Assembly: GCF_019145375.1 (NCBI RefSeq)
Contig: NZ_JAHSTX010000001.1
Coordinates: 496,001 to 560,000 of the forward strand
Reading direction: 5' to 3'
DNA from: Pseudomonas triticicola
Lineage (GTDB): Bacteria; Pseudomonadota; Gammaproteobacteria; Pseudomonadales; Pseudomonadaceae
DNA: 64,000 nucleotides
The notes under the pieces are model-generated. The model worked only from the letters and a program-made list of their open reading frames with translations. It was not told where the DNA came from and searched no databases. Positions 6,178 to 9,168 of this stretch are shown one piece after another (position 1 is the stretch's first letter; each line of letters opens with the position of its first letter). A program made the translations under genes and the position numbers.

Positions 6178-6969
6178 TCACACCCCTTTGAAGATCCCGG
6201 GCCGCCGCTCCACCAACGATCGCACTCCCTCCCGGGCATCTTCAGTGGCGAGCAACTTCTTCACCAGCGCCGGTAATGCCTGCGCCGCCGCTGTCTCCCC
6301 CTCATAACGCGCCTGTCTCGCTGACATCAAGGTCGCCTGCACGCCCAGCGGTGCCTGCCGGGCAATCCGTTCGGCTAGCTCAATCGCCCTTGGCAGCAAA
6401 TCCTCACTGGCCATCACTTCCTGCACCAAGCCCAGATGCAAGGCATCGTGGGCATCAAATTCATCGCCGGTGAGCAACCAGCGCATCGCGTTGCCCCAGC
6501 CGGCGATCTGCTGGAAACGCAAAGTCGCGCCGCCAAACGGAAAGATCCCACGCTGTACTTCCATCTGCGCGAAGCGAGTGTTGCTCGCGCACAGGTTGAT
6601 GTCCGCCGCCAGCATCAGCTCGATGCCGATGGTCAGGCAGTAACCCTGCGCGGCGACGATGACCGGTTTGCTCACCCGTGGGCCGACGAAAACGCCCCAG
6701 GGATCGCAGCCGCCGCTCGGAACCTGCCAACCTTCGGCCAGCGCCGCGCTGGCATTGACCAGATCGAGCCCGGCGGTGAAGTGTTCGCCATGGCCGAACA
6801 CCACGGCGACCCGCGCTTCGCGGTCGGCTTCGAATTCGCCGTAGGCCAGGCTCAGATCGTTGAGCAGGTCGATATCGAAAGCGTTGCGCTTGGCCGCCCG
6901 ATCGAGGCCGATCAAGTGCACATGACCACGACGTTCTCGGCTGACGCGGCCTGCGCAGGGCTGATTCAT
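6178..6969 (-). CDS. Crotonase / enoyl-CoA hydratase family protein
   Basis: A 263-residue crotonase-fold protein, start ATG at 6969 with TGAGGA upstream (a longer frame to 7041 lacks family similarity). Features: oxyanion-hole region VVFGHGEHFTAGLDL, second-half motif AAQGYCLTIGIELMLAADINLCA, and C-terminal KKLLATEDAREGVRSLVERRPGIFKGV. Family members hydrate, isomerise or hydrolyse acyl-CoA thioesters. The Glu pair of classical enoyl-CoA hydratases is not evident, so the reaction is open. It is the counterpart of the crotonase gene beside deaD in P. aeruginosa and diverges from deaD. Confidence 0.85.
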   Translation of the reverse strand: MNQPCAGRVSRERRGHVHLIGLDRAAKRNAFDIDLLNDLSLAYGEFEADREARVAVVFGHGEHFTAGLDLVNASAALAEGWQVPSGGCDPWGVFVGPRVSKPVIVAAQGYCLTIGIELMLAADINLCASNTRFAQMEVQRGIFPFGGATLRFQQIAGWGNAMRWLLTGDEFDAHDALHLGLVQEVMASEDLLPRAIELAERIARQAPLGVQATLMSARQARYEGETAAAQALPALVKKLLATEDAREGVRSLVERRPGIFKGV

Positions 6970-7163
6970 GGCTAAATCCTCAAGCGGGAAGGGCGGGTGC
7001 GCGGCGCTTTGCCGCAGGTCGGTGAACCGTTTAAGCGTCATCGCCCGCAGGGCCGGGCCTTTGCAAAATAGACCGTTGCGCGATTATCCGCAAAACCCCG
7101 TTACACGGCGGTGACACACGGATAAGGGCGACAAAAAAAGCTCCCTTTTCAGGCGAAATCCGG

Positions 7164-7169
7164 TATAGT
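7164..7169 (+). promoter_or_regulatory. Probable sigma-70 -10 box of deaD
   Basis: TATAGT preceded by CCGG and followed by GC-rich sequence. It is the best -10 element in the 419-bp gap before deaD; no convincing -35 is seen at the proper distance. Transcription would start near 7176, giving a leader of about 210 nt. Confidence 0.45.
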
Positions 7170-7175
7170 GCGCGC

Positions 7176-7391
7176 CGGCCTTTAACCGGGCCGCGTTTAG
7201 GTAGCGCATTTCCCGAAGTCAGCTTCGGCTGCACGTCCGCATTGCGGGCTCTTCCTTGACGATTCATCTTCATTCATTCGTTTTCGCAAATCCCCGCCGA
7301 CAAAGCTGCCAGGGCGACTCTTGAGTCTCAACACGGCATGCGCAGCTTTGGAGCATGGGTCTTTGCGGATGCACTTAGAGGCAGACCCATG
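7176..7391 (+). promoter_or_regulatory. Long structured 5' leader of deaD with start codon inside a stem
   Basis: The leader is rich in inverted repeats. CCGAAG (7213-7218) pairs with CTTCGG (7223-7228). CCGC (7237-7240) pairs with GCGG (7244-7247). CAAAGCTGC (7301-7309) pairs perfectly with GCAGCTTTG (7342-7350) and encloses a GACT-CTTG-AGTC hairpin. CATGGGTCT (7354-7362) pairs perfectly with AGACCCATG (7383-7391), which includes the deaD ATG; the AGAGG ribosome-binding site (7377-7381) lies in its loop. Cold-shock helicase mRNAs such as E. coli csdA are known for long leaders; control of translation by this structure is inference. Confidence 0.6.
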
Positions 7392-9062
7392 ACCCAGGAA
7401 ACCGGCGGATTCGCCGCTTTTAATCTCAACCCGAATATTCTTGCAGCCGTCGCAGCGACTGGCTACGAAGAGCCTTCGGCGATTCAGCAGCAATCGATCC
7501 CGATCATCATGGCCGGCCAGGACATGATTGGCCAGGCGCAAACCGGTACCGGTAAAACCGCCGCGTTCGCACTGCCTATTCTGCACCGCATCGATCCTGC
7601 CAAGCGCGAACCGCAAGCCCTGATCCTGGCGCCAACCCGAGAGTTGGCGCTGCAAGTAGCAACCGCTTTTGAAACCTACGCCAAGCAAATGCCAGGCGTC
7701 ACCGTCGTGGCTGTCTACGGCGGCGCGCCGATGGGCCCGCAACTCAAGGCAATCCGTAATGGCGCACAGATTGTTGTCGCTACTCCGGGGCGTCTGTGCG
7801 ACCACCTGCGTCGCGACGAGAAAGTCCTGTCGACCGTGAACCATCTGGTTCTCGACGAAGCTGACGAAATGTTGAAGCTGGGCTTCATGGATGACCTGGA
7901 AGTCATCTTCAAGGCTCTGCCATCGACCCGCCAGACCGTGCTGTTCTCGGCGACCCTGCCGCAGTCGATCCGCGCCATTGCCGAACGCCACCTGCGCGAT
8001 CCGCAACACGTCAAGATCCAGACCAAGACCCAGACCGTTACCGCGATCGAACAGGCTCACCTGTTGGTTCACGCTGACCAGAAAACCTCGGCCGTACTCA
8101 GCCTGCTGGAAGTCGAAGACTTCGACGCCCTGATCATGTTCGTGCGCACCAAGCAAGCGACCCTGGACCTGGCCAGCGCCCTCGACGCCAAAGGCTACAA
8201 AGCCGCCGCGTTGAACGGTGATATCGCCCAGAACCAGCGTGAGCGCGTGATCGACTCGCTCAAGGATGGCCGTCTGGACATCGTTGTTGCTACCGACGTT
8301 GCTGCTCGTGGTCTCGACGTTCCGCGCATCACTCACGTGTTCAACGTTGACATGCCGTACGACCCGGAATCCTACGTGCACCGTATCGGCCGTACCGGCC
8401 GTGCCGGTCGCGAGGGTCGTGCACTGCTGCTGGTGACTCCACGTGAGCGCCGCATGCTGCAAGTGATCGAGCGCGTAACCGGGCAGAAAGTTGCCGAAGT
8501 ACGCCTGCCAGACGCTCAGGCCGTTCTCGATGCTCGCATCAAGAAACTGACCAACAGCCTGTCGCCGCTGGTTGCTGATGCCGAATCGACTCACGGTGAG
8601 CTGCTCGACCGCCTGACTGCCGACATCGGTTGCACCCCGCGTGCTCTGGCTGCTGCGCTGCTGCGCAAGGCCACCAATGGTCAAGCGCTGAACCTGGCCG
8701 CGATCGAGAAGGAACGTCCACTGGTGCCGAACAACGCACCGCGTGGCGACCGTCCTGAGCGTTCCGGTGATCGTCCTGATCGTGGTGACCGCGAGCGTCG
8801 CGCGCCAATGCCGCTGGGCGAAGGCCGCGCTCGTTGCCGTACCGCGCTGGGTGCGCGTGACGGTATCGCTGCGAAAAACCTGCTGGGCGCCATCCTCAAC
8901 GAAGGCGGTCTGGCCCGTGAAGCGATCGGTCGCATCCAGGTGCGTGACAGCTTCAGCCTCGTCGAGCTGCCGGAAGAAGGTCTGGAAAAACTCCTGACCA
9001 AACTGAAGGACACTCGCGTGGCCGGTAAGCAGCTCAAGCTGCGTCGCTACCGCGAAGATTGA
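7389..9062 (+). CDS. deaD: ATP-dependent DEAD-box RNA helicase DeaD/CsdA
   Basis: A 557-residue cytosolic RNA helicase used in ribosome assembly, mRNA turnover and cold adaptation. Motifs in order: AQTGTGKT (Walker A, near residue 48), PTRELALQ (Ia), TPGRLCDH (Ib), VLDEADEM (II), FSATLPQ (III), ATDVAARGLDVPRITHV (V) and YVHRIGRTGRAGREGRAL (VI). A basic linker (PRGDRPERSGDRPDRGDRER) precedes a C-terminal DbpA-type RNA-binding domain (ARDGIAAKNLLGAILNEGGL to the end). ATG 7389 is chosen because conserved sequence starts there; it is followed by a rho-independent terminator. Regulation may involve the leader described separately. Confidence 0.95.
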   Translation: MTQETGGFAAFNLNPNILAAVAATGYEEPSAIQQQSIPIIMAGQDMIGQAQTGTGKTAAFALPILHRIDPAKREPQALILAPTRELALQVATAFETYAKQMPGVTVVAVYGGAPMGPQLKAIRNGAQIVVATPGRLCDHLRRDEKVLSTVNHLVLDEADEMLKLGFMDDLEVIFKALPSTRQTVLFSATLPQSIRAIAERHLRDPQHVKIQTKTQTVTAIEQAHLLVHADQKTSAVLSLLEVEDFDALIMFVRTKQATLDLASALDAKGYKAAALNGDIAQNQRERVIDSLKDGRLDIVVATDVAARGLDVPRITHVFNVDMPYDPESYVHRIGRTGRAGREGRALLLVTPRERRMLQVIERVTGQKVAEVRLPDAQAVLDARIKKLTNSLSPLVADAESTHGELLDRLTADIGCTPRALAAALLRKATNGQALNLAAIEKERPLVPNNAPRGDRPERSGDRPDRGDRERRAPMPLGEGRARCRTALGARDGIAAKNLLGAILNEGGLAREAIGRIQVRDSFSLVELPEEGLEKLLTKLKDTRVAGKQLKLRRYRED

Positions 9063-9090: not shown

Positions 9091-9123
9091 AAAAAATCCC
9101 CGACTGGTTCGGGGATTTTTTTT
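9091..9123 (+). terminator. Rho-independent terminator of deaD
   Basis: AAAAAATCCCCGA-CTGG-TTCGGGGA followed by eight T residues, about 28 bp after the deaD stop. The A-run upstream makes it potentially bidirectional. Confidence 0.9.
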
Positions 9124-9140
9124 GCCTGTTCATTGGCTGC

Positions 9141-9164
9141 TGTGGGAGCGAGCCTGCTCGCGAA
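9141..9164. repeat. Single REP-like element
   Basis: One full 24-bp copy of the REP-like sequence, unpaired, between the deaD terminator and the stop of the convergent dioxygenase gene. Confidence 0.85.
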
Positions 9165-9168
9165 GGCC

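Follow-up and report, generated by a model that had tools for sequence, protein, structure and literature searches.

A conserved leader element of deaD mRNA in the Pseudomonadaceae and its possible role as a translational switch

Little is known about how bacteria set the levels of the RNA helicases that they need in the cold. In P. syringae Lz4W, csdA has been described as indispensable for growth at low temperature, and the same study reports the absence of any noticeable motif from the regulatory regions of its helicase genes (PMC10783127). Several described systems come close to the leader presented here. The mRNA of E. coli cspA, a cold sensor, also carries the leader of a cold-related gene, and alternative conformations of this leader have been proposed to set translation (PMC6386945). 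CrhR of Synechocystis offers a parallel as a bacterial, cold-responsive RNA helicase that affects its own expression (PMC3485376). Feedback through the 5'-UTR of rne is comparable in that the conserved mRNA leader of a pseudomonad RNA enzyme is tied to the level of that enzyme, and rne-II is an Rfam family in Pseudomonadales (PMC2864571, PMC11964227). Among 104 candidate structured RNAs, several of which lie upstream of Pseudomonas genes, conserved leaders were recognized, as here, by the comparison of pseudomonads (PMC2864571).

The window analysed, a stretch of 64,000 nucleotides from Pseudomonas triticicola, carries at 7389-9062, on the + strand, a deaD/csdA-like gene for a DEAD-box RNA helicase of 557 amino acids with a DbpA-type RNA-binding domain, assigned with Pfam and NCBIfam. 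The Pfam domains of the product are DEAD, Helicase_C, and DbpA, and its best NCBIfam model is PRK11634 (DeaD/CsdA), with a score of 540.9 bits that lies below the cut-off of 989. All leader features given below are on the same strand. A consensus scan found no promoter before deaD; the -10-like element TATAGT of a presumed promoter, with a start expected near 7176, is located at 7164-7169 and is unchanged across 72 distinct leaders. The 5'-UTR of csdA in P. syringae Lz4W is 227 nt long, according to unpublished transcriptome data of the authors of that study (PMC10783127). Because TATAGT is invariant and the csdA 5'-UTR has this length, the deaD transcript very likely includes both arms of the start-codon stem described below, and a transcription start downstream of 7355, which would leave out the 5' arm, is improbable. 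The ribosome-binding site AGAGG occupies 7377-7381, and its GAGG is nearly invariant among 91 leaders. At the other end of the gene, a terminator-like hairpin followed by a T run is observed at about 9097-9122, and just past it, at 9138-9166, lies a REP-like repeat, ctgtgggagcgagcctgctcgcgaag.

The initial annotation drew attention to a perfect stem that covers the deaD start codon and to a second perfect stem upstream, and both are exact. In the start-codon stem, 7354-7362 (CATGGGTCT) is the perfect reverse complement of 7383-7391 (AGACCCATG), and the loop of 20 nt (7363-7382) contains AGAGG, as had been described. In the second stem, hereafter P1, the arms 7301-7309 (CAAAGCTGC) and 7342-7350 (GCAGCTTTG) are perfect complements. 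When every ATG of the window was considered on both strands, a perfect stem of at least 9 bp over the whole ATG, with the 5' arm within 60 nt, was observed for 6 of 1789. The bare start-codon stem is uncommon, yet unremarkable for one gene among thousands, and alone it is weak evidence; it is notable because of its conservation, not because of the 9-bp pairing.

This conservation is pronounced. Among 80 named Pseudomonas loci, 79 had enough upstream sequence, and they show no variation at 51 of the 52 nt that precede the deaD ATG: the leader is identical to that of the window in 64 loci and differs at a single position in the other 15. Of the fourfold sites of the same deaD genes, only 80 of 339 are invariant, with a mean divergence from the window of 0.227, and the longest invariant run within the coding sequence is 20 nt. 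A DNA query gave matches in 119 of 148 genomes of the family. The covariance model R1, built from 60 leaders, matches 259 of 298 Pseudomonadaceae genomes and 17 of 19 genera, and every matched genome that was listed has one match. The filters were stricter for searches that covered more than 40 genomes, and weak matches are lost by them. The genome of the window itself has a single R1 match at E<=10 and thus no second copy. In an order-wide search of 194 genomes, the eight strong matches (88.5-112.7 bits) all fell within the Pseudomonadaceae. One additional weak match (L256 of G477, 23.5 bits) was rejected as chance because no deaD was present in the surrounding 3 kb read and its score is near that of the antisense of the window's own leader (19.4 bits). 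Phage records contained no match at E<=1e-5. With Rfam 15, no family reached the gathering threshold in the whole window, and 7100-7460 gave two sub-threshold chance matches.

There are 39 R1-negative genomes, and the 20 that were listed comprise 19 of genus g5 and one of genus g19. All ten g5 genomes tested (G252, G268, G281, G291, G302, G309, G316, G323, G330, and G338) were without a DeaD match at E<=1e-150 and without the leader. The helicase is thus apparently lost or strongly diverged in g5, and since the genomes without a DeaD match are also without the leader, the element appears to travel with the gene. In G273, of genus g19, deaD was found and an R1 match was not; its leader was excluded from all statistics. 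Read by eye, this leader (L261) has GGTTGC as a match for GCAACC upstream of the start at 1501, and CATGG as a match for CCATG at the start codon. It seems to retain two X-like pairings along with a P1-like stem, and it may share the architecture with strand X (defined below) altered at every letter.

To describe the fold, 91 distinct leaders were aligned, and sixty of those were realigned over the element. The unguided RNAalifold consensus of these 60 divergent leaders comprises three helices: P1, the hairpin P3 inside it (7316-7327, with 7316-7319 paired to 7324-7327), and a further helix, P0, with the ribosome-binding site and the AUG unpaired. By the shuffle and arm-swap statistics, which treat leaders as independent of kinship, P3 is firmly supported by covariation: all four pairs are changed on both sides, in 13 cells against 1.8 in shuffles, and none of 500 shuffles reaches this. 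For P1, none of 2000 permutations with swapped arms did as well as the cognate arms. Its column-wise covariation is marginal, as the covariation score, the paired cells, and the double-sided changes were reached by 22, 51, and 279 of 500 shuffles, respectively, probably because a bulge shifts position. The view that the leader is structured is correct insofar as it holds a conserved cis element, but the start-codon stem is not its main core; the family-wide features are P1, P3, and the pairing that forms P0.

P0 was absent from the initial annotation. It joins an upstream strand, U (7285-7295, CGCAAATCCCC), to strand X (7354-7368, CATGGGTCTTTGCGG), and it thereby overlaps the start-codon stem, since X is shared between P0, as its 3' arm, and that stem, as its 5' arm. 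Residues 7285-7290 of U pair with 7362-7367 of X, in what we presume to be the open state, and a second part, 7293-7295 with 7357-7359, can form beyond a 2x2 mismatch that separates both parts. The minimum-energy fold of 7180-7450 uses the U-X pairing and not the start-codon stem; this fold is not unusually stable overall (z -0.65, with 48 of 200 shuffles at least as stable). In the 60 leaders, the CGCAAA:UUUGCG part of P0 has 97.8% of cells paired and is nearly invariant, and it is therefore unable to show covariation. In the L146/L173 type, one A and its matching U have both been lost, which counts as one compensatory event. In the arm-swap test of U-X, 62 of 2000 permutations did as well as the cognate arms. 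Pairing to X was weakened at p<0.05 for 14 of 20 U types by a shuffle of all 11 nt of U and for none of the 20 by a shuffle of its last five nt alone, which leaves the CCC:GGG part of P0 (7293-7295 with 7357-7359) without support.

Strand X is invariant in all 79 named Pseudomonas loci, and it is complementary to U and, in most leaders, to strand D, which comprises the spacer and the start codon (7382-7391). The start-codon stem itself, in which 7383-7391 pairs with 7354-7362, shows no covariation beyond that of shuffles in its alignment columns: 85.0% of cells are paired, against 85.0% in shuffles, with one double-sided change. One pair of the nine has double-sided changes in 4 of the 91 cells of the larger alignment, and 38 cells of this pair are unpaired. 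The stem is missing from the unguided consensus fold and has weakened or disappeared in several divergent genera; its arm-swap test was matched by 30 of 2000 permutations. When the best D-X duplex was taken for each leader, complementarity was found to be retained, often via shifted bulges, reaching 12 bp in L137 and L216 and 11 contiguous bp in L142 and dropping to 6-10 interrupted bp in genus g18. Compared with shuffled versions of themselves, 12 of the 21 spacer types pair better with X at p<0.05, covering 68 of 91 leaders, and nine types (23 leaders), including all of genus g18, do no better than shuffles. Against an edit-matched null, just one of 20 spacer types pairs better with X at p<0.05. 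Given these two outcomes, the X-D pairing is likely present in most of the family without being universal, and there is modest evidence that it is maintained by selection.

Based on these observations, we propose that the deaD leader is a family-wide cis-acting translational switch, a reading to which we give a probability of about one half, and that the leader probably sets the amount of helicase made. P1 and P3 would form and place U next to X, so that the two pair as P0, and in this open state P0 would keep the ribosome-binding site and the AUG free of X. D is transcribed later than U, P1, and X, which allows the open state to be the first to form. In the closed state, X would leave U and pair with D, so that the AUG is shut in a hairpin. 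As X is common to P0 and the start-codon stem, the two pairings exclude each other, unless half of each forms in an H-type pseudoknot. What the comparison of leaders brings out is strong conservation, one model match per matched genome, covariation in P3, and matching arms in P1, together with a conserved U-X complementarity and an X-D complementarity in most leaders. That U-X and X-D exchange in the cell, and that this exchange controls initiation, is what the model would add.

For each of the 91 leaders, the modelled ensemble with X-D forbidden was compared directly at 25 C with the modelled ensemble with X-U forbidden, and the two are predicted to lie within 2 kcal/mol in 45 leaders and within 4 kcal/mol in 65. 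The preferred fold is the open one in 30 of 91 leaders, and neither fold is uniformly favoured. When X-D is forbidden, 72 of 91 leaders are predicted to expose the AUG more, and this exposure is incomplete, with a mean of 0.49.

Plentiful DeaD may be what drives the exchange, by unwinding P0 and P1 so that the closed state forms, which would result in negative feedback; slow refolding in the cold may act in addition to DeaD or in its place. Control by DeaD itself is suggested by the known role of the gene. We extend this, tentatively, to a homeostat in which the U-X/P1 fold of the leader would be a substrate of DeaD. Resolving it would hand X to the start codon and shut translation, so that the mRNA would be a direct gauge of free helicase activity and would stay open in the cold or when helicase is scarce. 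No mimicry of the genome's own 16S or 23S rRNA by the leader was found in either sense, as 20, 97, 138, and 174 of 200 shuffles were as good.

An H-type pseudoknot in place of two exchanging folds is possible, although we consider it rather unlikely. CGCAAA:UUUGCG and GGGUC:GACCC (with CAU:AUG) would then coexist, with no nucleotide between the helices on X and with the start codon closed over a loop of 16 nt in which the ribosome-binding site lies, and the structure could serve as the site of a repressor protein or as a ribosome trap. The lack of support for CCC:GGG in any U type would leave GGG free for D while UUUGCG stays with U, and both complementarities are retained together in most leaders. 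However, in several clades (L142, L174, and L216), D reaches into UUU or UUUGC of X, where it would compete with U.

We are more doubtful that X is mainly a candidate site for a trans-acting factor, for instance RsmA/CsrA at the GGA in UGCGGA or a small RNA, with the pairings being secondary. CsrA-type proteins bind GGA in loops, TGCGGA is found in 81 of 91 leaders, and X is conserved beyond the needs of pairing alone. On the other hand, TGCGGA is absent from ten leaders in which P1, P3, and U-X persist, and the covariation of P3 points to selection on a fold.

The initial annotation had favoured a simple inhibitory hairpin over the start codon, melted open by heat or by DeaD, and this now appears improbable. 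The 9-bp stem is indeed perfect, and it is invariant in the species of the window and its relatives, but it is not in the consensus fold, lacks column covariation, and weakens or disappears in divergent genera. Modelling of the window's own leader also runs opposite to a block that melts open. The start-codon stem is predicted to be rare at 5 C (about 0.01) and to become commoner at 42 C, where three of the four lengths give 0.40-0.69 and the shortest just 0.05; at 37 C it is predicted at 0.28-0.46 in three of four lengths and at 0.02 in the fourth. In ROSE- and FourU-type RNA thermometers, the ribosome-binding site lies inside a stem that melts on warming. Such a thermometer was rejected here, as AGAGG is in the loop and the start-codon stem of the own leader rises on warming. 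Only 42 of 91 leaders are predicted to have more X-D pairing at 42 C than they have at 5 C, and because the trend is not more general than this, the suggested temperature switch does not stand as a property of the family, and we make no temperature claim.

Transcription attenuation, in which a terminator-like hairpin in the leader or in the first codons would set read-through, is very improbable. The region 6950-7450 does contain four terminator-like sites, compared with 1.0 (sd 0.9) in shuffles, and on the + strand these are found at 7235-7249 and at 7403-7416, the latter overlapping 7404-7418. Nevertheless, the sites use neither X nor U, their T runs are interrupted, and the conserved block stops at the start codon. 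As separate observations, the terminator-like hairpin at 7403-7418 has a short T run and lies inside the first deaD codons, as a possible attenuator, and in the small hairpin at 7235-7249 the variants of the fluorescens group seem, by eye, to improve pairing (G-U to A-U). Least credible is a coding role of the upstream block, as an N-terminal extension from the ATG at 7338 or as a leader peptide, which we rejected on ATG presence and frame across the 91 leaders: in the window, the deaD frame is open from this ATG, but by the pattern used 45 leaders lack it; of the remaining 46, 27 have it out of frame, 3 have it in frame but followed by a stop, and 16 have it in an open deaD frame, while ATGGGT at 7355 is absent in 36 leaders and occurs in all three frames.

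The deaD leader would therefore be read, in our preferred interpretation as a two-state switch, alongside the systems introduced above. We regard it as a new RNA family, with no match in Rfam and no published description of the element found in open-licence papers, and it can be used as such for genome annotation. With a family-wide leader and named strands, the question of its regulation becomes testable with a handful of mutants of harmless pseudomonads. The deaD leader gives no match to rne-II, and the presumed route at rne is mRNA decay (PMC2864571, PMC11964227). The words 'helicase' and 'deaD' are absent from the main text of the study of 104 candidates (PMC2864571). Compared with cspA, the deaD leader has another sequence and belongs to another gene, and its preference for the cold is predicted in the window's own leader, not family-wide (PMC6386945). 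For CrhR, the effects described are on the stability of the transcript and of the protein (PMC3485376), whereas the deaD leader would act as a switch at the start codon.
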